NCBI GenBank assembly: GCA_000320605.2
Contig: KB445794.1
Coordinates: 911,837 to 975,836, forward strand
DNA: 64,000 nt
DNA from: Gelatoporia subvermispora B
Lineage: Eukaryota > Basidiomycota > Agaricomycetes > Polyporales > Gelatoporiaceae
Direction of reading: 5' to 3'
Part shown: positions 1 to 63,922 of the stretch, in pieces
Position numbering within the stretch: the stretch's first letter is position 1
How the letters are laid out: each line of letters begins with the position of its first letter
Notes under the pieces: generated by a model
Seen by the model: the letters and a program-made list of their open reading frames with translations, nothing else
Told to the model about the DNA's origin: nothing
The model's database searches: none
Translations under genes and position numbers: made by a program

Positions 1-950
1 GTTTCGGACTTCGAGGTACGCGATGGGTTACTTGCGCCCACAAACCGTGCACTTCGAGAAGATGTTCCCAACTTGACAGAACCTGCCAGCAGAGGACAGA
101 CAATGAACTGAGCAGAGATGCCAGCGTGATACAAGTACTGCGATCGACGAGAGGCCGATCCCGACGATCAGATGGAATCGTGCGACGACCCAGCGCCGGA
201 GAATGGCCCGCCGCCGCCCGAGCCGGACGCTGCCGCCGTTGCCGCCGGAGTTGACAGGGCAGGAAAGGGGGAGCGGAGTGAGCTGCCGGGCCGTAGCAAC
301 AGGCCGGTGCCGAGCATAGCAACGGGTGGTAGCGGGGAATCGGCGGCGCCCGTCCCGACGCCCGAGGCCGCATTTTCCAGTGCTGCCACGCCGACTCGTC
401 GCCGACCACCACGCTCGTTACAATTGCCGTTCTTTCTTTTGCTCTCGCCCTCATCGTTGCGCACGACGAGGCCGTCTGTTTCCGCTTTGGTTCGGTCTGC
501 GGTGGCACCCTCCAAAAATCGTACAATATTCTCACAATATCCTAATTCCCCGTCTCTCTCGACTCCCGTCTGCGACTGGTGTCGTACCGCGCGCACACGT
601 GCTGATAATTGACGACATAACACGCGCCTTCTCGCTTTCCGGGACCACCACCACCACCATTACCGTCGCCCTGAGGAGGTCCGTATAAAACTAAATATCC
701 TCCCAGAAATATGTGAGTAGCGAGTGCAACCGTTGCCTTCACGCCAGCTCATGCCCTGCCGACCCGATCGTTAGGCATTATTGCTAGCTTTGCAAGGCTT
801 CACGTTTCCGACAGACGCACACGACCCTTGGATTCTTACGGACTTGTCACGGTTGTAAGTCGCAACTAGGACGCTGCAGTGATTTCTCTCCCTGACGCCA
901 TACGCCGTCCTGCGGCCTGTAGGGTTTTATAACTCACAAATTGCCGCCTA
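1..950. other. Upstream region, no gene assigned
   Basis: No gene is called. A GC-rich stretch at about 170-620 is open in several frames on both strands, but it has no recognisable domain and no splice structure, so I treat the frames as compositional. A TATA-like gtataaaact lies at about 683-692, roughly 260 bp before the start codon at 951. With the CT-rich DNA that follows it may be the promoter and 5' UTR of the gene at 951. Confidence 0.4.
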
Positions 951-3900: not shown

Positions 3901-4059
3901 CCACGGCAGCAGTGGTCGGAGCAGGAGAAGGCGCAGAAATGGGAGGACCTCCTCACGCAGAGCGCGCGGGCTGGCGGCACGCTGCATATCGGCGAGTCCG
4001 GCCTGCTCTCGGAGAGCACTCGGCTCTCCGTTTTCGACGAGTTGGACGCAGATCTGTAA
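951..4059 (+). CDS. Ser/Pro-rich protein of unknown function, 1012 aa
   Basis: I do not recognise the family. Two exons (951-1974 and 2045-4059) join in phase 1 across a 70-bp intron with gtaagt and gtag borders and give 1012 residues. A second acceptor at 2158 is also in frame and would remove 38 codons, so alternative 3' splice site use is possible. The protein is low complexity and rich in Ser, Pro, Arg and His, with a His/Ala-rich stretch near residues 170-190. The best candidate for a conserved core is a basic, probably helical segment at about 380-400 (KVAHAYKQQKQRRDKLEEL). The C-terminal third has many S/T-P sites, and a short charged segment ends the protein (QWSEQEKAQKWEDLL, then GESGLLSESTRLSVFDELD). 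There is no membrane segment. A regulatory or scaffold role is only a guess. The start is the first ATG of the long frame. Confidence 0.75.
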
Positions 4060-4284
4060 CATTTGGGGAACCCGTGTTTATATAGTCTTAATACCGCGAG
4101 TTTACGCGGATGCGCAGGTAGCACCATTCTTCATACCAGTACCCTAATGAGAGACCCTTAGCAGGCCTTGTAGATCACTTCCGCAGCCTATACCCCTTGC
4201 GCTCTGGCTGCATTCCGCTCTTTTGCGCTGTGACATTGCTGTCTAGATCTGAAAGTTGACCGCCCAATTTAATTGCACAATAAC
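4060..4284. other. Intergenic spacer
   Basis: This is the 3' flank of the Ser/Pro-rich gene, up to the start of the first duplicated unit. I see nothing coding in it. Confidence 0.5.
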
Positions 4285-4553
4285 ACAGCTTCATAGTGCC
4301 ATCACGGAGTTCACTGGGTACATAATTCCCATGGACCGCTTGCTCTACCCATTGACACTGGCTCTCGAGGGTGTAGACATTTACAGCATGGATTCAATGT
4401 ATTCGAGCGATTCGAAACGAAATACAGAACATACTACGAAACGGTAGATCACATTGCGAACAAATTCGGAACATATCAACGACACAGCTAAACTTCACTT
4501 CGCTCGTCCAAACCAGTCGACTGAGCAGGTGTGCAGGTGTTAGTACATGAGGT

Positions 4554-6469
4554 TCATCCTATGTGCACCTGCTGCCAATTATCGGGCCGGCGGCGCTTGA
4601 ACTCCTGCAGAAACATCGGCCATGGGGTAACCGCATTCGGTTGGTTGCCTGTGTTGGCGGGCCCATTCTGCATCGTACCCGCTCCTCCAGCCACAACCGT
4701 ATTTGTAACATGGCCGGCAGCATCTATAGCATCATCTATTTCCTCGTCTTCTTCGTCTTCGCCCTCGTCTCCGTTATCGTCGTCATCATTCTCATCCATC
4801 GGCGCATCTTCAATCTCGCGTCTATCGGCGGTCTCAATTTCCTCGAGGTTCGGGAAGCATTTCAGTAGAAGCAACCCCAACGCGGCTTGATTGTTGAAGA
4901 CTGAGTAACCGAGATGCACTTTCTTCGTCATTATGTTGTTTATGAATGAAACAGAACCCCATGTGTTGCTTGGAGCTCCTGGCTGACCTCGAGGCGGGTC
5001 CCGGACTTGGTAGACAACTAGACCCGCAGGCTGAGAACGGATGGGAACCAGAAGAGGAATGTCGCAAGCATCTATTGCAAGAGCGAGAGTCTCCAAGTGT
5101 CGACAGCAGTGAGCCAGAGTTATCAAGGATCTGACTGTTGTCTTGACTTCCCGCGCTCGAGACAAACCCGCTTCGAAATCCATAACGCGCAGTGAAGGCC
5201 ATGCATCGACCATCACCCATATAGCAGCGTCATCAAGGTCCCAGGCGTTGGCAGTCCCCGTATAGATTTCGCGCAGCTTCGACAGATGGAGTAAAGGTTG
5301 GAGAGCCTGAAGGGTGACAACGTGTTCGTCACCGATCGGGTCTTGAACAGAGGATGCATGAGTCGAGATGTCGATTTCTTCTATAGTATCAGCCCAGGAG
5401 TCTCGGATGCCGAGGAAGATATTATGCAGCTGGTTGGCAGTGGGTATTTCATCAAATTCGATCTCGAAGCTTGCCACCCCGCGAGGCTGCATATACCGCA
5501 AGAGGTCGACGAAAGTATTGAATTTCATGCCCGTCAATGCGAGCCGGCGGAGTGTGAAAGGTGATGCGTGCCCGATTGGGATGACGAAAGAATCGGTACA
5601 CCGTAGGTGCAATGCCTGCAGCTGTGGCAGGTTCCGCAATCTGTCGAAGAGGTCGTCGAGATGCTGACCAGTACACCAGATTCCGACGTTGCGCAAGGAC
5701 ATCAGTTGGCTGATACATTGCAGGAAGTAGGCCGAGACGTTTTCGCTCGGGTTGAAGATTTGGATCTCCTGTAGTTGAGGACAGGCATGCGGAAGGGTCT
5801 GAACTGTCGGTACGAGGATATCGCCGAGGTCCTCGGCTTCTCCGGGCCATTCAATGCCGATGTACAAACGTTGCAACGTCGGTGTGAGAAAGAGCTCGAC
5901 ATCGTCGAAAGATTCGAAGAGGTCTCCCGGGATGATCCACTGTAGTTCTTTGAGGTTGGGCAAGATCGGGATAGGTAGTTGTGCCCGCATAGCTTCGTAG
6001 ATGGATCCCGAAAGAAGACGCGCAGAAGGCGCGGCAGCTTCCAATGTGCTGAAGTAGGCTACGTCCGACTGGGAGTTGATGGGTAGCCAGCGTTTCGCGC
6101 CGACGCTCTTTACGCGAGGCGCGTATGCCTTCAATCTGTCCCACTCGTGGGGTAGTAGTGGGCGTGCGAGGTCCTATGCATTATGAGCACAGTGAGACAG
6201 CTTCAGTGTATCAATGCACTCACCACTACGAGCCACCGTACGTCGTCTTGCTCTAACACCTTCGTTTTCAGGGCATTCCGTGGGAAGAGCCACAGTAGTT
6301 GGGACAGGGAGTCGAGGTGGTGCCATAAAGTGTCCAGGGCAGGTTCGAGAAAGACGCTGTTAGTGCGTGCTAGGGCAGCGAGAGTAGGTCTGTCTGTCTT
6401 GATGTGGTTCGCGTCGAGTTGCTCGACGATCACTCTGGTGAGCTCGGGGATCAGCCAGCAGCGATGCAT
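4554..6469 (-). CDS. F-box-like protein, tandem copy 1 (621 aa)
   Basis: Two exons on the minus strand (6469-6224 and 6173-4554) join in phase 0 across a 50-bp intron and give 621 residues. The N-terminus (MHRCWLIPELTRVIVEQL, then LARTNSVFLEPALDTLWHHL) has the layout of basidiomycete F-box-like proteins. In this family the motif recruits the protein to an SCF ubiquitin ligase through Skp1. The rest has Leu-rich segments at fairly regular spacing (PNLKELQWI, LQRLYIGIEW, CPQLQEIQIF, LQALHLRC), consistent with a degenerate leucine-rich-repeat receptor. A strongly acidic stretch lies at about 545-570. The second copy at 8401-10301 has the same intron position and an 82-codon first exon. Substrate unknown. 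The start is the ATG that aligns with copy 2. Confidence 0.8.
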
Positions 6470-7242
6470 GGTGGTAACAGACAGGAGCAGTAATCGGTCG
6501 CGTTCGAATTTGTCGGTGACTCTTATGTGGCCACAGCAAAGTAGCCGAATTACCTCCGCGTTGAAGTCGATGGCTATCGCCGGTCACCAAGGACGGGGGC
6601 GGCTGCTCATCCACGTGACCGCGTTGATGCCGCGTCTTGTTCATATTGTGTTCGCGATGTGGTGCTGACAAGCGCGAACTTACTTCTGCGGTTACCGCCG
6701 GTATCGCTGGAATGAGTGGGGATTTCGCATCGTTGAGGCAGTACGGCGTTCCGATCACGCGGGGTAGACCCCATTTTCATAGGTGCATGTGCAACTTAAC
6801 ACAGGACAGCCGGAAACGATGGCTTGCCAGCACATTCCATGAGCAAGGACCCAAAGAGCGTAGACCTGCGAGCACTTACCGATAATCACGGACACGCCTA
6901 TCAATGGCACCAGCTTGTAAAGAAGGCGGGATGAATGCCCTGCCGCGGCCACTGCTTAGTCCTGGTCTGATTATCGAGGGTTGGGGACTATCGAGACTAT
7001 TAGCCCCCGACCCCGGAGCGACAGGTATTAGGCGAGCCCAGATAAATAGTGTCCACTGGGCCACGCGACGGAAGTACTTTGTCCACCAATCATAAAGCAA
7101 GACCCGCGATCAGAAGCAGCACCGTGAACAATCTTGTGAACCCACAAAGGTAGATTCTCAAGTATTGAGCAGCCTTGCGCGACGAGTGGCATACTGGCGT
7201 CTTGTATTGTAGCCCAGCCAAAAATAGATCGATTGAGATAAA

Positions 7243-7440
7243 ATGGTACAGGCATACGACACCCTCGTCGCTCAGTACTCAGTGTTGGCACGTCCGTCGA
7301 CGACCGCTTGCTGGAGATGAATTGGCGACTCTACATACGGACCGGTCCGAACCAGGAGGTCGCAATCGGGAGGACGTAGGAGTTCGTCGCTACACCTGGC
7401 AGATTTGCGCTGCAGGTGCAGGAGGGCCATCGTTGAGTCA
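7243..7440 (+). pseudogene. Broken copy of the ~150-aa protein gene
   Basis: This is the unit-1 counterpart of the intact gene at 11082-11534. The start (atggtacaggcatacgac) and later blocks such as gaggtcgcaatcgggaggac align almost base for base. I see three lesions: a net +2 insertion near 7285, a TAT-to-TAG stop near 7378, and the loss of about 260 bp after 7430, so that the reading joins the former last codons and stop. The upstream region still looks like that of the intact copy, but its TATA-like box reads agataaatag instead of agatatatag. No functional product is expected. Confidence 0.85.
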
Positions 7441-7510
7441 TTTTCCGCTGCGTGTTCGATATTGCCTTCTAGAGGGCACGGGCACTGGACCTAGGCTGTT
7501 GGACGCCGTG

Positions 7511-8094
7511 CCATAGTATTCATTCGGGCTCGGTGCCCGCATGTACTATTTGTGTCTCATTGAAATTCCTGTAGAATATGTCAGACGCTATTTGAGAAGT
7601 ACGATGGTTTGAGTACATGTCAGAAAGAACTACGAGCAGACCAATGCAATAGGAACAGGCAGCCAGCGAGAGTCCACACAGAAGGCTTGAACGGAATTGA
7701 TGTTGCATATGCCGCCCAGGTCTGATCATCACGTTCACTGAGCACAGCCGCCTGTAGACTTGTCGTGTAATGGGAGCTCCGGAATACGGCGAGTCTGACT
7801 ATCAAAGGTACACGAGTTACGACGTGCAAATCGGCAGGGACCCAATGATGTGACAGTGGGATCGCAATGCTACGGACGCGCTGTTTGGTTGTATTGACGC
7901 TTCTTGACCTCCTCCGTGCAGCGTATGCTATACAGTACCTGCGCAGTGCGAACCATTGCCCATACTCGCTCTGAATTCCACGTCATTCACACCTCGCGAC
8001 CGACCACCCTGAAATCAGTACAGTGTCGACAACCTCAAAGCAATCGCTGACGCCCCTGTGTTCGATGCATTCACTTGCAACAATAAACTAGCCC
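7511..8094. other. Spacer between duplicated units
   Basis: About 580 bp separate the two duplicated units. The open frames here are short, on both strands and without recognisable motifs. I see no gene. Confidence 0.5.
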
Positions 8095-8400
8095 CGTAGC
8101 GCCATCACGGATTTCGCTGGGTACATTGTCTTCATGAAATCCTCACATCAGACCAAATCAACTCGCCTCACAGCCCATCGACTCCAGATCCAGAGGGCAT
8201 GCACATTTCGAGCATGCATTGAATGTATTGAAAGATTGGGGACGGATCATAGAATACATACTACCAAGGCAGATATATACCGACGATGTTAGGACACATT
8301 AGATCAGACCAGACTTGAGCCTCTTCAGTCGGTGGATTTGTTCGGGGTTGATGCATGGGAACTGCGCTGAACGACAAGCGTGTGAGAGACAGTTCAGGGC

Positions 8401-10301
8401 TCATTCTATATGCCTAAACTGCCAATTCTCCGGACGACGGAGCTTGAAATCCGGCAGAAACACCACCCATGGTATGAAAGCCCTTGGTTGCTGATTGCCC
8501 GTATTGTTGCCGTCGATAGGCCCAGTTTGCGTTGCTCCGCCTACCACGGTCATGTCTGCGTTGTCAATCTCCTCATCCATTTCCTCGTCCACCTCGCCTT
8601 CGTCATCTCCATCATCTTCCATCGGCGTATCATCGAGCTCAGCACTAGCGTAAGTCTCTATCGCCTCGAGGTTCGGGAAGCACTTCAAGAGAAATAGCAG
8701 TAATGCAGCCTGGTTGTTGAGGGTGGAATGACCCAGAAGAAGTTTCGTCGTGTTGGGATTATTCATCATTGCAGGTTGATCCTGCACGTTGGAAGGAGCT
8801 CCTTGGGGTCCCTGACGAGGATCGTCCCGGACTTGATAGATGGCAAGACCGCTGGGATGAATACGTATGGGTGCCAAAAAGGGGAAGGCACGGGCGTTGA
8901 TACTCAGAGCGAGCGTCTCCAGGTGCCGGCAGTAATGAGCCAGATAGACCAGTGAGCGGGCCGTCGTCTTGATTTCATGAGTTCTAGAGCGACCAGATTC
9001 GATATTCAGCACACGCAGTGAGCGCCACGCGCTGACCATTGCCCGAATAGTACCGTCATCGATATCCCAGACATTGCTAGTCCCCGTGGAGAGCACGCAT
9101 AGCTTGGGTAAGTAAAGCAAAGGCTGGAGAGTCTCGAGAGTGACGACGTGATCATCATTGACGGGGTTTCCAGAAGAAGATTCATGCGTCGTGATGCTGA
9201 TGTCTTCCATGGTGTCTGCCCAAGAGTTCCGAATACCGACGAAGATGTCATATAGCTGGGTGGCGGTTGGTATATCGTCAAGTTCGAATTCCAAACTAGT
9301 TACTCCGCACGGCTGCGTGTACCGCAAAAGACCCATGACGGTATCATATCTCATGCCGGTCAACGCGAGCCGACGGAGTGTGAAAGGCGCTGCAATTCCG
9401 AGAGGAGTACTGATAGGTTCCGTACCACGAAGGTGAAGTGATCGAAGATGGGGGAGTTTCCGAAGCTTGTGGAGCAGGACATCGAAATGTTGCCCGGTGT
9501 ACCAAAATGCAACGCTGTGCAAGGACGTGAGCTGGCTGAGACATTCCAGAAAGTACTCCGAGACGTTCTCGCTCGGGTTAAATATCTGTATCTCCTGCAG
9601 CCGAGGACAGGTTCGCGGAAGGGCTTGCAATGTCGGTACCAGAATATCGCTGAGATCTTCGGACTCTTCCGGCCATTCCACACCAACATATAGACGCTCC
9701 AATCTTGGCGTGACGAAGAGTTCGATGTCATCGAAGGTGTCGAAGAGATCACCCGGGACAACCCACTGGAGCTCTTGGAGGTTTGGCAAAATCGGAGTAG
9801 TCAGGTGCGTCCGCATGGCTTCGAAGACGGATCCCGAAAGACGGCGCACGGAAGGCGGAGCGGGCTCTAGCATATGGAGATAGATCGCATCTGATTGGGA
9901 ATTGATCGGCAGCCAATGCTTTGCGCCGATGCTCTTCACTCGATACGCGTAGACCTTGAAGCGATCCCATTCGTGGGACACAGTGAGACGCGTGAGATCC
10001 TATGGAATACGGGACCAGTTAGACGGCTTCGTCGACGACACATTGGTGCACATACCACAACGACTAGTCGCGCCTCGTCTTGCTCCAGTATTCTTCCACT
10101 GAGGGCGTCCTGTGGGAGCAGCCACAGTAATTGAGCCAGTGAGTCTAGGTGGTACCAGAGAGCGTCCACAGCAGGCTCGAAGAAGATGCTGCTTGTTCGC
10201 GCAAGATTGGCAAGAGCGGGTCGGTCGGTCTTGATACACGTCGCATCGAGTTGTTCCACAATGAGCCTTGTGAGCTCTGGGATTGCCCAGCAGCGATGCA
10301 T
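8401..10301 (-). CDS. F-box-like protein, tandem copy 2 (614 aa)
   Basis: Exons 10301-10056 and 9999-8401 join in phase 0 across a 56-bp intron and give 614 residues. The N-terminus (MHRCWAIPELTRLIVEQL) is F-box-like as in copy 1. The body repeats the Leu-rich pattern (PNLQELQWVV, RLERLYVGVEW, CPRLQEIQIFNPSENVSEYF). The acidic tract near the C-terminus is kept but differs in composition (DDGDDEGEVDEEMDEEIDN). Both copies keep a full frame, so both may make protein. Divergence is visible at many sites, so the duplication is not very recent. The likely role is substrate adaptor of an SCF ligase, inferred from the family only. The gene shares an upstream region with the divergent gene at 11082. 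Confidence 0.8.
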
Positions 10302-10872
10302 GCTTGGCGACGGAAAAGAGTAAAAATCGGTCGTGTTCGAATTTGCGGTAACCTTTATGTGGCCACAAAAACTAGCCGAAATAGCACCGCGATTTCGATG
10401 GCCATCGCCGGTCACCATGCCGGATGGTAGCGCCTGCTCATACACGTGACCGCGTCTTGTTCATGTTGTCTGTTCGCGAACGCGAACTTGCTTCCGCGGA
10501 TACCGTCAGTGCCGCTGAGATGAGTGGCAATTTCGCGGTGTCATTGTGATACGGAATGCCGATCATACGGGACAGGCCCTAAATTAGTGGGTGCATGTGC
10601 AACTTACACAGGGAAGCTGCGGGTGACTGCTTGCCTGGGAGATTCCATAAGCAAGAGGTCAAAGTGCGTAGACTTGCGAGCACTTACCGATAATCACGGG
10701 CACGCCAATCAGTGGCACCAGCTAATTAGCACCACCTGATAGTAGAAGGCGGAACGAATACCCCGCCACGGCCACCGCTCAGCTCCGTTCTGAGTAATGG
10801 GGGTCGCGAACCATCGACACTACCCCCTTCCGACTCCGGAGTGATGGGCCACCTTCGCATCAGGCGAGGCAA

Positions 10873-11044
10873 GATATATAGTGGCCACCAGGCCGCGCGA
10901 TAGAAGTTCTTTGTCCAACGATCATAAAGCAAGGCCCGCGATCAGGAGCAGCGCCGTGAACAATCTTGCGGACCCACATACGTAAGTTGTCGCGTTTCGA
11001 TCAACCTTGTGCGACAAGTGGCACACTGACGTCTTGCATTACAG
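10873..11044 (+). promoter_or_regulatory. TATA-like box and 5' UTR intron of the gene at 11082
   Basis: A TATA-like agatatatag lies at about 10872-10881. Between it and the start codon there is a typical small intron at 10982-11044 (gtaagt to attacag, 63 bp), so the 5' UTR is probably spliced. Both features have counterparts in unit 1, where the TATA-like box is altered and the donor reads gtagat. Confidence 0.5.
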
Positions 11045-11081
11045 TCCAGAGCCTAGCCAAGAATAGAACAAATAGAACAAG

Positions 11082-50933: not shown

Positions 50934-50966
50934 CATCGTGTACTGTACCATTTCGACCTTAAGTTC
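50934..50966 (+). repeat. Outer terminal inverted repeat, left
   Basis: It starts with catcg and contains tactgtaccatttcgacctt followed by a.gttca. The inverted partner is at 63890-63922. Outside these points the two flanks no longer match, which places the element ends here to within a few bases. Confidence 0.7.
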
Positions 50967-51112
50967 ACCCGGGTGTGACCTGTGACGCTAGTTCACCAGT
51001 TCATGAGCCCTCGGACGGCGTGACATACGGCCTAATTCAGTTTGATACCCTCAGTGACATTTTGTGACCGAACCAACGACCTATGGGTCGCTCTGGCGGC
51101 TACAGTTTTGGT

Positions 51113-51212
51113 CACCTCAGTCCGGACATCATTGCTTATGTAATGTACCTAGTAAGCTCCCAATGTGATCGGGCGCCAAGGGCCTTTGAGGCTCCATCCC
51201 CGCGAGGCCTCC
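51113..51212 (+). repeat. Inner (subterminal) inverted repeat, left
   Basis: The block starts with cacctcagtccggacatc and ends with cgcgaggcctcc. It pairs with 63327-63427 on the other strand with only a short mismatched patch after ggacatc (attgc against ttctgc). It lies 179 bp from the left end. Confidence 0.85.
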
Positions 51213-51928
51213 CCGGCACTCCTTGCTTGCGGTCATCGTCGAAGGCATCGTCACATCATCAAGGACCTCAGATATAGTTCAAATACACGCCAACGGCGCT
51301 ATCCGAACCATTGCGCACCGTTCGTGGTCGTTGACTACTTCAGTCTCACCATATCAGTCAAGTTCATCTGCAGACATTGATATTACAGTACGTACACGAC
51401 AGCAAGATGGCTAGCGAAGGGATAGCAAGACGGCGAACATAGAAAGATACGGCAAGCAACAACATATACTGCAAATAGCAGCAGGCGCAACGAGACAAAG
51501 AGAGGGTATGACGAGCAAGAGCGGGCATAGCGAGGCTGGGGTATCGTACATATTTCTGTATGTAGCGAGCCTCGTAATATGAGAATAAGCAGCCACGGAA
51601 AACAAACTGATATCAGGAAGCGCAAGATGAAGTGAGTATCGGATGCAAGAGCAGATATAACGTGTCAGGGGTATTACGTGGGGGCCGCTCGAGGAGATGC
51701 CCAGCAGACACACGAATAGGAGACGGAAACGACGGAATACTCGGGACAATAGATATGCAGTAACAGATGGTTCGAGGCCTCAAACATAACATCACTGATG
51801 TTCTGCAGATGGTATAAGATATGATTGCTGGTGCCCAAGAAGACGGTGCCGCAGGCTAATCTGAGGATGAACGAGGTATCGGCACCAGGAACGAAGTAGT
51901 TTGGCGAAGAGGCAACATACCAGAGGTA
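51213..51928. other. Left internal non-coding part of the transposon
   Basis: About 700 bp between the inner repeat and the stop codon of the large accessory gene. It is rich in repeated short purine words (gcaagatggc, gcaagacggc). I see no gene; it may hold the terminator of the accessory gene and transposase binding sites. Confidence 0.4.
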
Positions 51929-54900
51929 TCATCCTTGGTTGGTGCCATTCCCTCCTCCGCCTGGTTGCTGCTGCTCTTGAAGCTGCTGCTGTAGAGCTAG
52001 GGCAAGTGCTATGACCTCTGCACTGAGCTGCATGTTTCCAAACTGCCCGACATTGATCTGGGGCGGAGGCAGCTCAGGGGCCAATGGCGCAGCGGCGGGG
52101 GGCGCCAGCGGGATCGTTGAGCCGGAAAGTGGTGCAGTAGACGGTCCAGGAATCAGCGCAATGGATGGTGCATCTGTATGACGTGAGACAGGCACAGGCA
52201 CGGCGACGGTCCCCAATGGTCCCATGCCTCGAGTCCGAACCATTCTGTGCGACGGCTTGGGGTGCCTCTTCCGCATCAGGGCCTGTTGTTCCAGGTAATC
52301 ACGCCGGCTGTCACCTGTGGTTGCAGAGGCGTCTTGCTCTATCATCGAAGCCCGGAATCTCACAATCAGTGTCCGATGCACCCATCGTTGAAGGAAATGA
52401 CTTACGGCGGGTCTCCGTAGGGTTTGACAGTACAGGCGGGGCTGCTATCTCGTCCGCCGCTAGAGCTGGAGTCGGGCTTTTTGCATCCCTTGGGGACATT
52501 GCCTCCTGGGCGGGCTCCTTGATGCGTGCCGGAATGTCCACGTATGGTGTCATGCGGCTTCGCTTCTGTGCTAAGTCAGGCATCATGGATGTTGACGGCT
52601 CACCCTCCCTGACCCTTTTGCCTGTGCCGTGCTTCGCTGGCGCCATTACCTTGGATTCCTCCCTAGTTGTCGACGGCCCAGCCAGGCTTGTACCATCCTT
52701 CTTGGAGAATCTTGAGAGGCGCTCCTTCACATGCTGCTTCATCTTCACCTGTTCCTCTTCTGTCATCTTCCGCCTCTTTACGCCTGGAAAGGGCCCTTCA
52801 ATACTGATGCCGTCGTCCACTGCTACCTTCGGTCTCCCGGGACCCTTCGAAGGCATAGGGAAGGGACCCTCAATGCTAAAGTCGTCGTCCACTGCTACCT
52901 TCGGTCTCCCGGGACCCTTCGAAGGCATAGGAAAGGGACCCTCAATGCTGAAGTCGTCGTCTACTGCTACTTTTGGTCTCCCGGGACCCTTTTGAGCAGG
53001 GAAGGGACCTTCGATGCTGAAGTCGTTGTCCTGCGCCACCGCCATCTTTGGCTTCTTGGGACCCTTCGAAGGTAAAGGAGGAGGGGGAGGTTTCACAAGC
53101 GGTGCACCTGGCGTAGTCCGCATGCCGAGGAACACAATACCAGAGTCATCCGATGTCGTGGCATATGACTCTCCGGGACCGAAGATAGGGGGTGGTGCGC
53201 GGGTGCGGGTGTCGGGGGTTTTAGCACGGTACGTTACCATGCCATGCTTCGGCACAATTGCACGAGGGCGTGGCCGCAAGGTGCCCTCTTGATTGGTCCT
53301 TGGTGTTGCAGCCCTTGCTGATGTTGCCTTGCAATCCTGTGTGACATGTGCAGATGCGGGCCTGACGGGGACTGGCATGGCAGCGGGGGCAGGGATCATG
53401 GGGCCCGGAACAGAGGCATGAGCAGGGACAGGAGCAGGGACAAGCCCGGGTGCAGGGCTGGGTGCAGGGGTCGGAGATGGTGCTGGGAATAGCGGAGAGG
53501 GTGAGGCCTGGTCCTGCTTGAATCGTGGACGCTTTGCATCCCGCACGTCATCCTCCGAGTCATGGTAGGATGAGGCATCGTCGGAATCCCCGGACGGTGG
53601 CCGTATCTGATCATCTGACTGGACTTCAACCACTCGTAACTTCCGTGAACCACGAGTGCGCTTTGCAAGTGGCGGGGATGGGGACGTGGGTTCTGCATCA
53701 AGTCCCGGGGAGGCCTCGGAGTGTGGCGGAGACGAATCCACCGCTGTTCGGCGTGGAAGACCCTTGTTGTCCGCATATGGTGCGTCTGACGATGCTGACC
53801 AGAAGACGCGAAGGCCGCGTGCATGTTCCGAGGTTGCTGATGGGGGTGCACCCAGAATTACCAAATAGTCGCCGCGGCCTATTGACAGTATATAAGATGT
53901 ATCACAGATAGGAACAGTGAAGCTAACTTACGGTTCCTGTTCTCCTCGTGGTCGGCTACGAACGTCAGAGGTCGAGTCGGATGTTCGATGGCATCTGCCA
54001 GCAGCTTCTGCTGTCTCCCGGTCAGCCCGGCGATTCCTTTGCTTCTATCCATATCGGGATGGCCGGGCCAAGGCACACCGGGCGGCCAGTTGATGATTAC
54101 AAGATTGTCGCGGTACAAGATAGACAGGAGAGATATCCATGGACACTGACCACCGACAGGTGGTACGAGACCTCGTTTGAGGCAAAGCATAGTCAGGAGA
54201 TGCACTCGCAACCCCTTCAATAGGCCGTCTCCACGCGGTATCCGCACTACTATCATCTCCGGGCCTACTGAGCTGCGGGTCTCTACTTTGGGCCCGGCTA
54301 TATCACCCGACATCTTAGTGGATGTACTAGCCGTGGCGACAGTGACATTTGCAGACATTTTATTTGCAGCTTCATGAGTGCGCTCAATGATCAGGTTGGC
54401 GCTGAGATGCCTTCATATTGACTGTAAGTGCTGGCGCCTGGCATAACACGTAAGCAGAGATGATAACATACGAAGCATGTGACCGTAGAAGCCCAACTAC
54501 AGTGTCTTGGTCCATCTTTGTTACTCGCTCGACGAACTGCTGGTCTATCAGAGATGTATCTTCAATGATGAAATCAATGTACTTACCCCTGTCGCGCCCT
54601 CCGTCTCATACATGTACCCCACGCCATCATCCTGCTGAGGATTGTTTCCGGAGGTAAGGAGAATACTCTCAAACCCCCAACGAAGATGCGCCGTGTCAAG
54701 CGTCTGGGCGAGCTTGGATGTAAACTTGTGGAATGTACGCTTGCGTGACGCAACAGTTGTGCGACCCTCCGGACCGAGAAGCATGTGCAGGTGATAATGT
54801 GTCAATAGGATGTCACGTATCTTGGCGTCATCGTTCGCATGTGCCTCCTTGAATTTCTCGAAGCATTTGGCGACGGTCTTCCGGTTATGAGATACCAGAA

Positions 54901-56974
54901 TCTTGCCTGATGTGTTTGCGTGATCAGTATCGGACTTTCCACGTATATAGATGATACATACCGTCTTTGTTTGGTCCAAGACGAGCGCACTCTGTCACGG
55001 TACGATCTTTGTGCAGCATCTGATATAGGCTCCAGATGTTGATGCTTTGCCGTGCATCTGTATGCAGGCTAGACCAGAGCCGTCGCACCTGCTCCGAGGT
55101 AACTCCGGTCTCGGAGGCAGCGATATCGTGGAACATGGTGTCAATTGCACGGCATTTCTGCTTCAGACGGTGCAGCAACTCTCCAGCTAGACGACGATCC
55201 TCAACCTGTGTCTCAGACAACTCATCATGTAGTTGCTTCGCGTCAATGGTATAGTCGGGCTCGCCATCCTCATCTTCAATGTTCATCACATCGTCGATCT
55301 CGTCTTGATTGGTACTAGTCTGCTGACCCGTCAGAGAGGCCTCGCGCTGACCCTCCTCGGAGGCATCCTGCTGTTCTACCGCCACAGAGAGAGCCGGTAG
55401 CTCAGAGGGAGCCGGTAGCTCGGAGGTATCCTGCCGTTCTACTGCCATGGATGCGCCATCAACATCTGCTGGAGCCATTAGAGCCGCATCTGGAACAGCT
55501 GGACAAACATCTGGTCCAAACGAGGCAGCGTCTGAACCGGGGGAGGGAGCTAGCGGAGATGACGGGGGCAGCGGGGAATATGGCAGTAGATGCCGGGGCT
55601 TTGGTGATGGCGTCCTTGGCAGACGCCTACCATCGCCTAAGGGATCGGGAAAGACGAGGTTATTGGCTGCAATGCTGTTGAGATGATGCTCCACCGGTGG
55701 AGGCTCATGATGATGTTCCGATGACGGAACCTGGACCTGTATGCGTGGTGTCCCTGCTGCAGGACCTGAGGATACAGCAGCCACAGGTCCACGGGCAATC
55801 GTAGAGAACACGACAGAGGTGGAGAGGGATGGAACACCCAGGCCTACGGGATGAAGCGACCTCGAGACGGAGAGAGGGGCAGCTACCCGCTGGCTTTGCG
55901 GTGTCGGAGGTGCAGACCCAGCGCGATCGGCCTTAGTCAGTGAACGTCCCACTGCTCCAGCAGCTACGGGACCTGCTTGTCCAGCATCGGTGACTGCAGA
56001 TCTAGCATGCTTGGCGTGAGCACCTGCCGCAGGTTGGACTTGGGTCGCGTGACGTAGAAAAAGCGAAGGTAGATTGGCGGTCGTGTAAGCACCTGCCGGA
56101 GGTTGTAGGTGGGTCGCATGGCGTAGAAAGAGCGAAGGAAGATTGCCGCCAGCATGGTGGTGTGATGCAAAAACATCGTCAAGATGAGGCGGTGCAGAAC
56201 TACCACGTGTTGGAGATGAGTTAATGGCCTGTGGGACGGGCAGAGTGGTAGCCCCCGTCCACTCTTCCAGCACACGGAACATACTGCGGTCAGAGACTCT
56301 GTTTGCCACCGTATCTGATGGCAATAGCGGAGCCGTGGGTGCCGGCTGTGAGTGCTCATCGGCAAGACCATCGGACAACATCATGGAGGGCTCGTGCCCG
56401 TTTGTCGATAAGTCTGCAATCTTAATCGAGCAAAGGTAAGAATTTATCATACTAATACAGTGATGTTACTCACATATCCTCCTCGAACATGTTGCTGTGA
56501 TGCAGAGATCGGGGAGGGTGTCAGATCACTCTCCGTACCCTCATCGATGTGCTGCAATTGTGAGTTCATATTGTCGAAGTGCTCCAGGTCAGACGCGGTC
56601 GGCATAAAGTGATCGTACTCATCCTCATCGCTGTCAATGGACTGCGAGAAGGATGCTATGGGAGGATGATCCATAGATAGGACCGGAGATGAAGGCGGAG
56701 GAGGATCCATGGGCAATGGGTAGCGCCGCTGAGCAGAAGGTTGTATGGGCGGCTGCGTGGGGTGGGGCACCATCGTGTAGTCGGCCTCGACAGGGGGACA
56801 ATGCAACGAAGTATGCAGCGACGTCTCTGGTAGCACTGCAAGCGCGTCGCTTCCATGATTCTCCACCATCGTGGAGGTTTCGCCGTCAGCTTGCAGGGCA
56901 CGAGTCGAACGCGTCCGCGCTGACGAGCGTGTCGGACGTGTCCCTCGTCGCGACGAGGCTTTTCCACGTCCCAT
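51929..56974 (-). CDS. KDZ-element accessory protein with tandem AT-hook-like repeats (1566 aa)
   Basis: Seven exons (56974-56474, 56420-54962, 54906-54587, 54539-54472, 54401-53932, 53878-52406, 52338-51929) join without a frame break to 1566 residues. The start MGRGKASSRRGTRPTRSS is basic. After a long Pro/Ser/Ala-rich part come two parts that look folded: about 600-780 (QVEDRRLAGELLHRLKQKCR, KTVAKCFEKFKEAHANDDAK, RDILLTHYHLHMLLGPEG, LRWGFESILL) and about 830-930 (GGQCPWISLLSILYRDNLVI then INWPPGVPWPG). At about 1211-1306 lie four repeats of about 24 residues (PGRPKVAVDDDFSIEGPFP); the GRP core with basic neighbours resembles an AT-hook. The end is Gln-rich. No known enzyme domain. A role in DNA binding or in transposition is inferred. 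Confidence 0.75.
52780..53063 (-). repeat. Four tandem 72-75-bp coding repeats (AT-hook-like)
   Basis: Within the accessory gene the DNA repeats four times with a period of 72-75 bp. The middle two units are almost identical (ggtctcccgggacccttcga in each), and the outer units are more diverged. The pattern suggests recent unit gain by unequal exchange or slippage, so copy number may vary between alleles. Confidence 0.85.
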
Positions 56975-57546
56975 TCTACTAAATTGGGCCTTTGTCAGTA
57001 TCAAATCAGTACAGGTCAAGTACGAGATGACATACCGGGAGCTCAGGGAAGTATAGGATCTTGAATAAACACTGGCAGAGCTATCGGAGCTGAATGGGAG
57101 GTCGATGGGGTCCGGGGGAAAGACGTGAGCTAGGAGCCCTAGCAATTTTACATCCAGCAGCACATGCACTGCGAATCCAGGAAGTATCCTGGATGCCAAA
57201 CATTCCAACGAGGCTGCCTGAATGTAGTTCAGCGACGATCAGTATGACCAAAAGCGGCACCAAATCACCTACTTGGGAAGGTAGATTACATTGCAGGAAG
57301 ACATCTCGCCCATATTGGAACAACTGCCTATATAGATACTGGCCAATGAGAGACGGTATAATGGAGGGCCCCGTCAAGACATACATTCCGGAGGTATCCC
57401 AGGGCATGCAATTTGAGGTATTGGTCTTGTTCTGAGCTTGGAATATAATGCATAGACTATGGTACAGTGCGCCCGGAGACTTGTAACAATCCTGTGAGGT
57501 TGCTTCTGCATAGACTGGATATGGTTGTGACACGAAGCCATAGTGC
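56975..57546. other. Divergent promoter region inside the transposon
   Basis: About 570 bp between the start codons of the accessory gene (-) and the 230-aa gene (+). Open frames exist on both strands (57081-57605 -, 57094-57435 +), but none has a motif. I leave the region as a likely bidirectional promoter. Confidence 0.4.
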
Positions 57547-58374
57547 GTGCAAGATCTCGCTGTGCTTCTTGAGGGAGCAGCGTGTGTCGAGCATACTGTC
57601 GGCATTCCTTACACCCAGAGTCTCAACTTATGGGACGAAAGGCACAGTACTTCACATCTGGAGATCGCAAAACGGCTCAGCGAGAGTTTAAGCAGCAGAG
57701 GGACAGCACTGAGCGGTGCGTACACGGTGTAGCGTGCTGGTCGTTGCAGCGTCTCGGCTAAGTCTAGATTCTCTCACACAGAGGCAGGGCGTGCCGCAAG
57801 GCACAAAAGCAGAAGGCAAAAAGTCGAGAAGCATACTATACCATCGCCAGAAAGTCTCCCAATGCCGCTGAGGTGGTGACACGACCAGAAGAGCTACCAG
57901 TGACCCTGGTGAATCTAGCCTTCTGTCATGTCGATACGTATACGGTATGTTTGCCATCCTCAGTCCAAACAGATTGCGCTCACTGCTGGATACCATCCCA
58001 ATGTCCTGACATTATAGCAAAACGATTTACGTACGCTAGAAGGAAGATTATGTGCTGAACTTCGCGCGGAAGGACAACTTCGTGTCTCTCATTGTCAAGA
58101 AGGCCATGTAGCAACAGTTTACCACATGGGCGTGAGGCATCTCGCCCAATTGATCCATGAGTGGGAGCGGGTACAGGGCGAGGAAAACTCGTACTTGTTT
58201 ACAGGCATCGAAGAGGACAGCATCCATGTAGAGTGGCTGGCTCGACGTATCTATTGTCTCTGGGATGATCTCGACTTGATGGAATCCGTTGACGACTTCT
58301 TGTCACTCTACAGTTTTGCTCTTCTAAGCTGGCAGAGTTTGACCAACATGCACCTAATGTTGCGTGACATTTGA
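57547..58374 (+). CDS. KDZ-element 230-aa protein of unknown function
   Basis: Three exons (57547-57719, 57782-57944, 58018-58374) join in frame to 230 aa. The first intron uses the weaker donor gtacac, so the first exon is less certain than the others. The middle part is basic (RACRKAQKQKAKSRE). The C-terminal part is helical and acidic (LAQLIHEWERVQGEENSYLF, then EDSIHVEWLARRIYCLWDDL) and ends HLMLRDI. I recognise no domain. It is the only gene of the element on the plus strand, and its stop codon is 38 bp from that of the transposase, so the two transcripts probably overlap at their 3' ends. It might be an accessory factor or a regulator of transposition; nothing in the sequence decides this. 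Confidence 0.6.
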
Positions 58375-58412
58375 TTGTATATAAATGAACTGTTACAATG
58401 TACCCTATACAG

Positions 58413-61400
58413 CTACACGTTGGGCAATTGAGAAATCAGTCGACATAGGTAAGTACGCAGAAAAGGTATGTCATGTTCTCGTAAATCTGTCGAATCGAAC
58501 CCCTGAAGCCGTGCCGCAATTACAGCCAGGATCCACATGCCGCAGTCAACCCCGTTACTTTGCACGGCAGATGTCTGCAATCAATGATCAGAAACGAAGA
58601 TGATCATGCTCTTTGAGGCATACCAGAAGAGGCCTCGCATGCCACATCCCCAACGGTAGTTGACAGTCGGCTAGCTCGAATACACGTTGTATTAGACAAT
58701 GCGCACGCTGAGGGAATCGTAAGAACACGAGTCGAGGGAAATATATGGAAGACTACCTTGATGTCATCGATCCAAGCATCCCTTGATGCAAGACTATCAA
58801 AATGATAGAGTTGTCGCTGCGGAATATCAGCTATCACAAGTGTCCAATGGCCGCATTGACTGGCTGTTGGCTCGCGGTGAATGGGAATTAGCCAACAGTC
58901 ACAATCCCAGTACATGTTGTGCTGGATAGAACGTCCAAGCATGGCACTTCCATGCTCATAAGCCGCAGAAACAATATCGTACGTGGAGAAAATTGCACAA
59001 GCTGGGTCGTTGGCACGTGGCAAATGTTGCTGCAGGAGTAGCGCACACCCATTGATGCAGTCGGAGTTGAGCATCCTGTCCACTTCAGCGATGCGCAAAA
59101 AGTCCCCGGGAGTGAACACAGCTGATCGCATGCGGTTTGCGCAAGCCAGGACGCGTGAGGAGTGAATGGGTACAGGTGCGTTGGGAACCTGGATGCTTCG
59201 GAGGACTGAGAAATTATGTCGACGCAGATCAGGCTACGCAAACTCGGTTGAGTGATGGAGCAAAACATCAAGGAGGTCACCTACCAAACATCTCCAGACG
59301 TACTGAATCCTAGCTGATAACCGGTGAGATGCCTGATCGTTGGAGACATAGTTCACAGGATCAGTGGTGATCGCAGTGTTGGTGAGGGCGGTAATAGCAG
59401 TAGGAGTAGCAGGACTGGCTGCCGCAGTGGTGGTGGTCGCAGGTCCGTCATCCTCTACAGATATGATGTCCTCAAAAACATCTATCATTTGTGGATCATC
59501 ACCGATGTCGCCCACAAATGACTCATCGAGATCATCGTCGTCATCCTCTTCGAGGTCGAATGTTAGAAGACGCCCTGAGACAACACTAGAGGCAGCTGGT
59601 ACCGGGTGGCCAATATCCGTAGTATCGAGGATGTCCTGAACGGTGTCAACAGCCCAAGATGCCTGCAAGTCCAAGCCACCCTTGGGCAGCAAAGGTATAT
59701 CCCACCTGCGCTGCAGTAACGCTACGTCGTCGTGTCTCTGCTGAAGCAATGGCGCGTAGAATGCATCTGAAACACTGCATAAGTGACGTACGGAGATGCC
59801 TCAGCGCAAATACATACTACCAAAAGTGAGCATGGCGAGCTTCGTTGCAGCTAATTCGCGCCCAAACCATGCACACATGTTGTGGGCCTCTCGGTGAAGG
59901 CGTGCCTCCTCTTCATTGCATCGGTCGACTTTGAGCAGTGCTTGAATACCCTCTCTGACCGACTGCTCTTCCAACCACCGTGGTCGCCCTTGATGCGGGA
60001 GCGGTGATATCCAAACATCATCGTAGAGGTTTGGGTCATCACGGAGTTTAGCAAGGTCCGTGGAGAGCGGTGAGGGAATGGGAAAGGTCGAAGGTATGCT
60101 ATGCTTCTTTGCTTCCGCTGCGAGCATAGTGCAGTAATTGTTGAACTTACGGATGGCAGTCAGGATCGATGGTTGCCGCTTCGATATCGCCTTGCGGGTG
60201 TGTTGGTGAAGCTTCGTGCCTGGAATATATGCTGAGCACCATACGAGAGGGTGGACATCCAGAAGAACATACCCAATGGATTGTCCTTGCCGCCTGCAGC
60301 ACGATCTAGTCGGTCATACTCGAGGAACTGGGCTGTAACGCGCTTGCGAATGTTACACTTGATGTCGCGGGCGAGGATCAAGATTTTTACGAAATTGGAA
60401 TCGAAGTCCTTGAGCTCAGGAAAACTTGTTCCAACATTCAGAGAAACGTAGAGTGTATCAACGCGCTTGCTAAGGTCTCGAGATGCCTTCTCAAGTGTCG
60501 ATAAGATGGTGTTCGCTTCCGGAGATGGTCCGCCGTCTGTCAATTGTGTTCGCACAGCTTCGAGTGCCGCTTCAACACGGTCGACATCGTTTTGCAATGC
60601 AAGGACAGCATCCACCTCTTTCTTGAGGCGGGCAGGTGCATCTATAGAGATGGTACAGTCGATCAGCAGATGAGCATCGGCTAATCAAATACATACGCGC
60701 TGAGACGGATAATTGAGCCGCCTGCTGCAAGGACCATTGCTCCCGCAATTCCGCCTCTGTCACGGCAACCCGATTCAGAATCTCGCGAGCCTTGTCTCTC
60801 TGTTCGATGACGCCACGATTCATCTTGTGGACTAGAAATAGCCCGAGGTTATTCAGCATCTCCTCTGCGATGGCTTGGACTTGGCGATCGATTAGCCATA
60901 TCCGTCGTGAACGCTGTGCAGGAAGGGTTCAGTTTATAATGCAGGTGTGCACAAGGGAACGCACCGCTGAAGTCCGCGTGACGGGAATAAAGACTCGCAG
61001 CCTTGACCAAAGGCGCTCAACCCCCTCACCATCGCGGAGGCCTAGGCCTGTGCGTAGGCGTGGATTATATACGAGCTGGCATGCCCATTGATGGCCATAA
61101 GCGTGCATCACAGAGATGGCCCATACGAGCCGCTCAGTGATATAATCAGGAAGGTAAGAGTACTACAAAGAATGCAGATCAGCTCCTTTTCATGGCGTTG
61201 AGAGGCATGAAATACGCACAAGACCATTGCCACGGTCCGCAACACAGCCAATGTCGTAGAGCACGGCGACAACCGCATCATCGGGAATGTGCGTGAAGAG
61301 TTCTTCTATCAAGAAAATGGCATACTTGAGTTGCTCGCCCGGGGTGTCGATGTTGGCGAGAAAGATAGGAATGTCATGGCCACAAACAAGCGCCATGATG

Positions 61401-63079
61401 CCAGTATCATCGAAGCGGTCCCCATTCGTCTTGGCCTTTTGCTCGTTTGCGGCCTCATGCCCATTTTCACAGGCATCGACCGCCTCATCTGGAACCTTTG
61501 GGACGTACGTCCGCTTCGACTTCTTGTTACTTTTCCGTAGCTCGTCAATCCGTGTACCAACCGAATCCACCTTCGCCTTGGGAACGAAGTACTCTGGGTT
61601 ATAGAAATCCAACCCTTCGCCCGAGGTTCGCAGATGTCGGTGGCTGAAGTTGCCATCCACGGCAACGACAATATCTCCACCGCTGAAAATAGAGGGTATC
61701 AGACATTCGGTCACAGCTGAACATGTTCGACTCGCTCACTCTGCCAAAGTGCGGCCCCAAGCAGATCCGCCAAAGCAGGCTGGGCAGCGTCGTTGTAGAA
61801 AGGATGAGCACTGGGTCCGGCGCTGTCTCGTAGGGTCATGGTGAACGCCCGGAGTTGATGATGGAGGCATCTGCGATGGTGCCTCGGAAGGCGGCAGGTG
61901 GTCCGAAGGAGGTATAGGGAGTGTCTTCGAGGTATTTGGCAGTGTCCTCGAAGTAATGAACGGAGGGGTCGAAGTACCGCATGATACGCCAGAGGGCATC
62001 GAGGGCACAGCCGGCTCATCGAGACGTTCATGAGCTGCAATGGCCTGCCGCGCGCTTTCGATGGTATCGTCGACGGTCCGGGAGATAAGGACGCGCACGC
62101 TGTCGTACCACTGTATTGCAAATCCCAGAGGCCGGCGGAATGGATCGAGCATAGGTACACCCTACAGGCATGCATTAGCATCATCCTTGCACCAGCATCT
62201 CGAGACTAACCTTACTGTCCAAGACACGCCAGCCACGTCTCGTGTAGTAGTTACGCAGAGCACGTGCGAGTGCTGTAACAGCGTCGCCGGAACGTTCAAA
62301 GAGGGCGAAATAAAACTCGAGGAGGTCAATGGATACCGCAATACGAGGCTGCGTAGGAGATGTCGGAAACATCCCAGATGATATGAGAACGTGCGTGAGC
62401 GGTGTGCAATGGCAATATGGGACATCGTGACTTTCATAATCTATGTGCGGGTAATGCGTGAACCTGCGAGGAGGACTGCACAAGGAAACTCACGATCCCA
62501 GAACAACAGAGTAACATCCTGCTTCCTCTGAGCGCACTGCGGGCTGGAACAGCGGTGATCCGGCGTGAAACATGTCTTCACCGGCGTCCCCGAGCTACGC
62601 TGCAAATATTGAAGTAATGGCTCCACGATCGAGGGCAAGAGAGCCTTCCATCGCGAATGCATGGAGACGACATCTGCGCGATGAGTCGTGCGCCGACGCT
62701 TCCGTTCCGGTTCGAGAGTATCCGGCGGCGCCGACGTGTAGTCCGCGGGTTCTGGGGTAGACGTCACTGGTTCATCCAGAGCATGGAGGCCGTCGGAGGT
62801 TGCTGAGGGTATGCTGGCAGTACCGGGATCATCCACGGAGGTGCCCATTGCCATCTCTACATCTTCAGGCATGGCAGAAGCGTCATCGCATGACTCTGAG
62901 GGAATGACGGGGTTCTCAAGCTCTTCCAGGCGCTTTCGGAGCCTCTTGATCTCGAGGGAGCGAGCAGCATCGCGCACCACTGCTTTGTTCACATTGTTGA
63001 CATGCCTCTTTTTAGGACTATGAAAGAGGCGGCCCGCCCCGGGAATGAAGGGTTGTTGATCACGCAAAGACGGTGCCAT
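58413..63079 (-). CDS. KDZ transposase with N-terminal cysteine cluster and C-terminal Ulp1/C48 peptidase (1363 aa)
   Basis: Twelve exons (63079-62494, 62440-62211, 62161-61740, 61682-61220, 61162-60965, 60913-60697, 60641-60273, 60219-59818, 59766-59285, 59233-58757, 58707-58624, 58574-58413) splice in frame. A CxC-type cysteine cluster lies at about 175-215 (CFTPDHRCSSPQC, then PYCHCTP). The KDZ core follows with CPACFG, VAVDGNFSHRH (Asp 422), VCGHDIPIFLANIDTPGEQ, VLYDIGC (Asp 556), MHAYGHQWACQLVYNP and DGEGVERLWS (Glu 613/616), matching the expected Asp-Asp-Glu of its RNase-H fold. A coiled-coil part and an acidic linker lead to a Ulp1-type cysteine peptidase with GHWTLVI (His 1252), YHFDSL (Asp 1269), Gln 1315 and NGVDCGMW (Cys 1321). 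Start: A at -3 and G at +4; an upstream ATG at 63238 is possible. Confidence 0.9.
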
Positions 63080-63326
63080 AGTCCCCGTCGGAGCAGAGTA
63101 GTACTGACACAAAGCAGAAGGAGGTCGAGCAAGACGTTGAGTACGTAGCACGACGCGTGCGTAGTACCGCGGGCGGACGCGCCGCGTCGGCGGCGAGGGG
63201 CGAGAATCCGGGCGAGAATCATCTCCAAGATGATACATACAATGAGTCCAGACACGAGGCGTAGTGAGATATGATCAGCACGATGTACCTGACCTGTCTA
63301 GGATGTCTCACTTCTATGAGAGCCCG
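63080..63326. promoter_or_regulatory. Transposase upstream region
   Basis: About 250 bp between the transposase start and the right inner repeat. It must contain the core promoter unless that lies within the inverted repeat. No TATA box is clear. Confidence 0.4.
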
Positions 63327-63427
63327 GGAGGCCTCGCGGGGATGGAGCCTCAAAGGCCCTTGGCGCCCGATCACATTGGGAGCTTACTAGGTACATTACA
63401 TAAGCAGAAGATGTCCGGACTGAGGTG
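63327..63427 (-). repeat. Inner (subterminal) inverted repeat, right
   Basis: This is the partner of 51113-51212 in opposite orientation. It lies 495 bp from the right end, against 179 bp on the left, so an insertion or deletion of about 300 bp separates the two ends. Confidence 0.85.
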
Positions 63428-63889
63428 GTTTTGGTTGAAACGCCTCGTCGAGCGCTGGCAAGACCGTTGAAAATTAGAGAGATCAGCCGTTCTGCCAGTG
63501 GTGCAACTGCGGTTGAACTTTGTAAAACTCGTAGCCAGGGGGTACAATAGAGTAGTAGCACCCAGAGGGATTTACCTTCGCACACACGACTGATTTCGAG
63601 GCCACCGTATTCAGCAACTTGCACGCTTGCGGCACAATCCACGGGCGTCTCGCCTGATGACATCGACATTGGGGCCACACGTTCGGATTCAATTTTAGAC
63701 CATCTCTATTCACTCTACAGGCCTTGCATACAACAAATTTAATAACCTAGGTACTCTACAACTCATCTAGGAGCTCCAAAAAAGGGTTATTAGACGGTGT
63801 GACACTTTTCCGAAGTCGAGTTCATCGAGCTCAGGACGTGTGACACGCGAACTAAATGGGGTGTTCAGAGGGTCCGAGGACGCGTGACT
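63428..63889. other. Right subterminal region of the transposon
   Basis: About 460 bp without a gene. Near the end it has several gtgtgac/gtcac words (gtgtgacac at about 63799 and 63840, cgcgtgac at 63882). Similar words (gtgtgacctgtgacg, ggcgtgac, agtgac, tgtgac) cluster at the left end, at 50970-51070. Confidence 0.5.
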
Positions 63890-63922
63890 GAACCTAAGGT
63901 CGAAATGGTACAGTAGGCGATG
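63890..63922 (-). repeat. Outer terminal inverted repeat, right
   Basis: Inverted partner of 50934-50966, with one mismatch in the best-conserved 25 bp. The following bases (ttcc) also precede the left end. Confidence 0.7.

Follow-up and report, generated by a model that had tools for sequence, protein, structure and literature searches.

A KDZ-superfamily transposon nested in a small inverted-repeat element of Gelatoporia subvermispora, and the two genes that accompany its transposase

We analysed 64,000 nucleotides of the genome of Gelatoporia subvermispora B (C4:911837-975836 in an assembly of 52 contigs and 37.7 Mb, with contigs labelled C2, C4 and so on), hereafter called the window, which carry a KDZ-family DNA transposon with three genes. 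The fungus, Ceriporiopsis subvermispora by its older name, is a white-rot member of the Polyporales according to the available text of PMC8955403. The transposon is nested within a 652-bp non-autonomous inverted-repeat element, into which it inserted at GTTTTGGT, and its two companion genes (genes 2 and 3) have, within this genome, been inherited with the transposase (gene 1) as one unit. The deposited proteins that correspond to the window genes carry CERSUDRAFT_ identifiers and belong to Gelatoporia subvermispora B. The features of the locus, with terminal inverted repeats abbreviated as TIRs and target-site duplications as TSDs, are the following:

51113..63427, minus strand (the transposase strand): KDZ transposon proper, 12,315 bp, with TIRs, TSD and an empty-site paralog
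51113..51213, plus strand: left TIR arm, beginning CACCTCAGTCCGGACATC
63326..63427, minus strand: right TIR arm
51105..51112, plus strand: left copy of the TSD, GTTTTGGT
63428..63435, plus strand: right copy of the TSD, GTTTTGGT
50941..51112, plus strand: left part of the 652-bp non-autonomous element (ends TACTGTACC...GGTACAGTA), 100% identical to the copy at C4:2077657
63436..63915, plus strand: right part of the 652-bp element, following the second TSD copy; one mismatch in 652
50934-50967 and 63889-63922: outer inverted repeat, 34 nt, 91% identity
58413..63079, minus strand: gene 1, 12 exons, 1363 aa, with CxC1 zinc cluster, KDZ transposase and C-terminal Ulp1 (C48) protease
51929..56974, minus strand: gene 2, 7 exons, 1565 aa, with three GPGRPK repeats and a conserved middle segment
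57630..58374, plus strand: gene 3, 3 exons (57630-57715, 57782-57944, 58018-58374), 201 aa, predicted helical, convergent to gene 1

Two inverted-repeat pairs, one inside the other, are present between 50934 and 63922. The inner pair starts at 51113 and ends at 63427 (aligned blocks of 89 and 18 nt), and the alignment of its arms, about 102 columns long, contains a single mismatch and a single gap. According to the original prediction, a 13-kb KDZ transposon extends from 50934 to 63922 with inverted repeats at both ends. The outer 34-nt pair does exist, but it forms the ends of the 652-bp element and not those of the KDZ transposon, whose start and end had been placed 179 bp and 495 bp too far out, respectively. 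Two of the checks proposed with that prediction, a genome search for the same ends and a comparison with an empty site, lead to C4:2077657-2078308, an uninterrupted paralog of the outer element that is 652 bp only, has unrelated flanks and joins 51112 to 63428 across a single GTTTTGGT. It is 100% identical to 50941-51112 over 172 bp and 99.8% identical to 63428-63915 over 488 bp. The 8 bases shared by both alignments are GTTTTGGT, which occurs once in the paralog and twice in the window, and once 51113-63427 and one GTTTTGGT are excised, the remaining 652 bp differ from the paralog by a single mismatch. Because this paralog represents the pre-insertion site, the KDZ transposon is the segment 51113-63427 inserted in the small inverted-repeat element, and the outer repeat is ruled out as its border. 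Borders cutting through a gene had been named beforehand as evidence against a bounded element; no gene is cut by any border. With its TIRs, its 8-bp TSD and its empty-site paralog, the element has the marks of a bounded mobile unit.

The outer ends have 4 (left) and 8 (right) matches in the genome, their own place counted. Two of the three other left-end copies begin only at base 8 of the reported outer repeat and the right-end copies elsewhere stop at 63915, which places the outermost 7 bases of either side in the flank. At its ends the 652-bp element reads TACTG...CAGTA, and no longer direct duplication accompanies them in three copies. That a single 13-kb transposon is bounded by the outer repeat at 50934-63922 seems to us scarcely credible: the outer inverted repeat is present, but its ends occur without the interior in the 652-bp copy with its uninterrupted target, and the sister copies on C18 and C7 terminate at the inner repeat, each with an 8-bp TSD. 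The ends of the 652-bp element are also found at C13:444134-460223, about 16 kb with a 1038-aa model matching Peptidase_C48 and DDE_1. This is perhaps the full-length source of the 652-bp element, a candidate of Tc1/pogo-like type; N fills about 9.6 kb of the stretch, and the alternative is an interrupted small copy.

A TIR search of the genome gave 19 matches, and the arms outside the window are 77-87% identical to those of the window. The ends of six family members were examined, leaving aside TIR matches on C13, C8, C2 and C10 and a second pair on C4:

51113-63427, window member: TSD GTTTTGGT
C18:247731-259742, 12,012 bp: TSD AGCAGGTT
C7:163165-175123, 11,959 bp: TSD TCTAGCGC
C4:1775410-1787135, second member on C4: TSD GGGAATTT; interior N from 337 to 11065
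C5:457511-468950: TSD GAAGCGTC
C12:775382-788138: TSD GAGGCACC

All six start with CACCTCAG and finish with CTGAGGTG, and each is flanked by an exact 8-bp duplication (6/6). Two TIR-bounded segments on C4, at 1775410-1787135 (11.7 kb) and 2224960-2237986 (13.0 kb), are without a KDZ match. At C8:753374-754926 and C2:1823486-1825023 the TIR pairs of this family lie just about 1.5 kb apart, and these may possibly be non-autonomous derivatives.

The three genes had been predicted with 12, 7 and 3 exons and no frame break, and exactly these counts were reproduced in our spliced models. Gene 1 has 1363 codons without a stop and 11 introns, all of them GT-AG and 49-57 bp long; the C-terminal end of the window model was set by comparison with the sister copies. 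The deposited model, CERSUDRAFT_47795 (944 aa), is without the C-terminal protease present in the 12-exon model. Pfam profiles matched CxC1 (E 1.9e-9), the KDZ transposase domain PF18758 (E 1.2e-46; 159.6 bits, cut-off 26.6) and Peptidase_C48 (E 9.5e-11), all above cut-off, which bears out the predicted identity of the transposase. In an alignment of 121 rows, made up of the 12-exon model and the 120 listed homologs, among which is the deposited model of the window gene itself, D422, D556 and E616 recur in 119, 121 and 120 rows, and H1252, D1269, Q1315 and C1321 in 100, 94, 94 and 97 rows, the remainder being mostly gaps. We infer from their motifs that these are catalytic residues.

At E <= 0.001, at least 367 of the 7995 candidates scored are homologs of the CxC1-KDZ part of gene 1, and a precomputed PF02902 (C48) match accompanies 87 of the 120 listed homologs, from Obba, Trametes, Suillus, Coprinopsis, Mycena and others. 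By these annotations the CxC1-KDZ-Ulp1 architecture is common in Agaricomycetes, and gene 1 shares its domains with such proteins (e.g. of Obba rivulosa, Trametes and Suillus), a likeness at the protein level. In a midpoint-rooted FastTree phylogeny of the 120 homologs and the model, 10 Gelatoporia and 4 Obba rivulosa proteins form one clade with a local support of 1.0. The Gelatoporia members are those of the window, C18, C7, C10, C2, C12, C3, two of C5 and one on an unplaced 13-kb contig, the assignment of deposited proteins to contigs being exact for C2, C4, C10, C12 and C18 and near for C3, C5 and C7. The Obba rivulosa proteins stand at three positions within the clade, some nodes of which are weakly supported; if descent was vertical, the three-gene unit would predate the split between Gelatoporia and Obba.

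The copy had been proposed to be complete, apparently intact and possibly recent. Its interrupted target differs from the intact paralog at 1 of 652 positions, which agrees with a recent insertion, and on the evidence of the aligned nucleotides both the recency and the completeness, with open reading frames, appear real. The nearest whole relatives, on C18 and C7, are 65-74% identical to it in long aligned pieces. Between these two sisters the ratio of nonsynonymous to synonymous substitution rates (dN/dS) is 0.30 for gene 1 (1315 codons), 0.32 for gene 2 (1343 codons) and 0.25 for gene 3 (189 codons). Between the window and C18 it is 0.08 for gene 1 (1338 codons) and 0.22 for gene 2 (1416 codons), with dS near 2, and the comparison of gene 3 is saturated. 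In the C7 copy, genes 1 and 2 are each interrupted by three stops, and the C18 copy has none in the compared codons of these genes; the five stops counted in gene 3 of both sisters are intron read-through. Gene 3 of C18 has an open three-exon model, and for C7 the gene finder gave the last exon alone. The automatic model of gene 1 on C18 stops after exon 10, before the protease exons, although a C48 match is present in the protein deposited for C18. Could this be a domesticated locus, maintained for a function in the host? It is the sole copy of its lineage in the assembly, and a low dN/dS by itself cannot separate selection on a transposon from selection on the host. However, near-identical TIR arms, an exact TSD and a nearly undiverged target are what is expected after a recent jump, and we hold domestication to be very unlikely.

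The genome-wide counts of domains and relatives given here are lower bounds. The KDZ domain gave 59 matches in 35 loci. Relatives of gene 2 occur at 11 loci, ten of them beside a KDZ domain (10/35 KDZ loci), and relatives of gene 3 at 8 loci, all of which are among these ten. Order and orientation are constant at 8/8 loci, with the KDZ gene followed by the convergent small gene and then by the large gene in the KDZ direction. The only relative of gene 2 without an adjacent KDZ domain, at C2:2341510-2341926, is a fragment with internal stops. The ten gene 2 loci are exactly those that match the KDZ Pfam profile to position 200-210. The other 25 KDZ loci match it to 215-217 (24 loci) or partially (one), and neither gene 2 nor gene 3 was found within 12 kb of them; these further loci, e.g. 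C14:26851-27669 and C21:546645-547383, make up a second KDZ class in the genome. The conserved segments of gene 2, compared at five far loci, are 37-57% identical to those of the window, and those of gene 3, likewise compared at five, are 32-37% identical. Because TIRs and 8-bp duplications enclose all three genes at two far loci, on C5 and C12, the three genes moved there as one. The protease is the less secure feature of the ten loci: a C48 match is present in deposited proteins from C18, C7 and C12 and, of the two loci on C5, from one.

Genes 2 and 3 had been regarded as cargo, a misleading term: since they recur in the same fixed order at other loci of one KDZ subclass, they were not acquired by the window copy alone, and they have the appearance of genes belonging to the transposon itself, not of passengers. 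We think it unlikely that an ancestor merely caught them and that chance or a use to the host preserved them, without a role in transposition. The lack of a transposition-linked domain in either gene would suit such passengers, as would the 25 of 35 KDZ loci without either gene within 12 kb, which indicate that KDZ elements can do without them. On the other hand, the gene order has been kept even among copies that share as little as 32-37% identity in their conserved segments, and dN/dS is well below 1 in the element copies.

What might the companions be? No Pfam profile matched either of the two genes at E up to 1, which upholds the proposal that the gene content differs from the TET/JBP-linked type. 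A Tet_JBP profile search of the whole genome was empty, as were the control searches. The gene 3 model is identical over its full length to deposited CERSUDRAFT_72259, and the deposited model of gene 2, CERSUDRAFT_72258 (1502 aa), differs in some exons from our 1565-codon model. Iyer et al., in 2014, reportedly described a divergent HMG domain in KDZ elements. As a candidate for gene 2 it found no support, with no Pfam HMG match in seven members (limit E 10) and none among PDB sequences; HMMER filters drop most matches above about 0.1, so a weak HMG match could escape. The best other Pfam matches reached E 0.015, in one member each. The predicted structure of gene 3 (mean predicted local distance difference test, pLDDT, 72.5) consists of helices, one of 44 residues at the N-terminus and four further long ones after it, and a fold search with it returned 427 weak matches, none at E <= 0.001 among solved folds. 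For gene 2, the structure predicted from a segment of 106 residues was poor (mean pLDDT 60.2). Profile searches of PDB sequences with the companion proteins gave nothing below E 0.2. No homologs were found outside the species for gene 3 (1 match among 136 candidates, the gene itself) or gene 2 (2 matches among 6231, both from Gelatoporia subvermispora), in a search that needs shared 5-residue words and may thus miss distant relatives.

In Cryptococcus neoformans, according to the available text of PMC12810828, the mobile elements KDZ1-3 measure about 9-11 kb and are bounded by TIRs of 139-241 bp, with TSDs of 8 bp (4-8 bp for KDZ2/3) and CxC1-KDZ transposases. The Gelatoporia element is comparable in size, TIRs, 8-bp TSD and CxC1 and KDZ domains; in contrast, its TIRs are about 102 bp long and it is known from its sequence only. 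The text of that source, as available, names neither an Ulp1 domain nor companion genes. From the portion of PMC12730594 at hand, TET/JBP-bearing Kyakuja elements have 7-bp TSDs, CA..TG ends and no TIRs, Zisupton has 8-bp TSDs and TIRs, and a Dileera-lineage element also has an 8-bp TSD. Like the TET/JBP-bearing Kyakuja and Zisupton of fungi outlined there, ours is an Agaricomycotina KDZ transposon with additional genes, but its companions are not TET/JBP. Although its ends read CA..TG, the 8-bp TSD and TIRs of about 102 bp are not those of Kyakuja; they agree with Zisupton, non-decisively since the Dileera-lineage element also has 8 bp. Animal Zisupton likewise has a multi-exon KDZ transposase and TIRs (PMC9297572, in its available text, which does not describe companion genes) and an 8-bp TSD (PMC12730594, same portion). 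KDZ TIR motifs are also mentioned for Marasmius oreades in the accessible part of PMC8290104. Our literature search found no paper naming both Zisupton and Ulp1. Judged by the ends alone, the element resembles Zisupton and Cryptococcus KDZ1 more closely than Kyakuja.

On account of the empty-site paralog with its TSD, the TSDs at 6/6 members, the domains above cut-off, the conserved residues, the co-occurrence of the genes and the dN/dS values, we consider the following reading as a whole probable: a complete KDZ-superfamily DNA transposon of the cut-and-paste type lies in the 652-bp element, which it entered at GTTTTGGT, and the companions act as accessory factors. Several points weigh against this. 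The element is known here from sequence alone, and the assembly holds no near-identical sister of it. In gene 1, exon 10 has a weak splice donor (GTAGTC), placed 9 bases upstream of its counterpart in the C7 model. A gene 3 relative was not found at 2 of the 10 gene 2 loci (C2:810358 and C19:546976), the genome-wide C48 search matched just 2 of the 10 (C4 and C19), and several deposited proteins of these loci are without a C48 match. No match in the Pfam, PDB and fold searches hints at a function of genes 2 and 3, and the resemblance of the GPGRPK repeats of gene 2 to AT-hooks is a presumed one.

In this reading, the transposase would bind the terminal repeats of about 100 bp, cut at CACCTCAG/CTGAGGTG and join targets with an 8-bp stagger; the duplication is seen directly, and the chemistry would follow that of the family. 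The Ulp1 domain may strip SUMO, or a modifier similar to it, off the transposase or off silencing factors of the host. To judge by their co-inheritance, the companions could assist transposition as accessory factors or counteract silencing, the large protein of gene 2 being possibly a DNA- or chromatin-binding scaffold and the small helical protein of gene 3 a partner of the large protein or of the transposase. More tentatively, and with somewhat less than even confidence, we propose a three-protein system in which the transposase, with a SUMO protease built in, would work or escape silencing only with two dedicated partners of undescribed families; by the shape of the tree, it would be older than the split between Gelatoporia and Obba.

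Elsewhere in the window, two automatic gene models on the minus strand (4554-6469 and 8401-10418) have like starts (MHRCW.IPELTR.IVEQLDA) and are apparently paralogs.

KDZ elements are widespread in mushrooms, and to our knowledge bounded, intact copies with an empty-site control are not often described, which is an impression and not a count. The present copy supplies exact ends, a target duplication and an open gene set for a KDZ element. What appeared to be cargo proves to be a conserved component of one KDZ subclass, and the fixed companion pair is most worth pursuing. Does KDZ transposition need partner proteins, and do SUMO-protease domains counter silencing? Both questions would become testable with this element.

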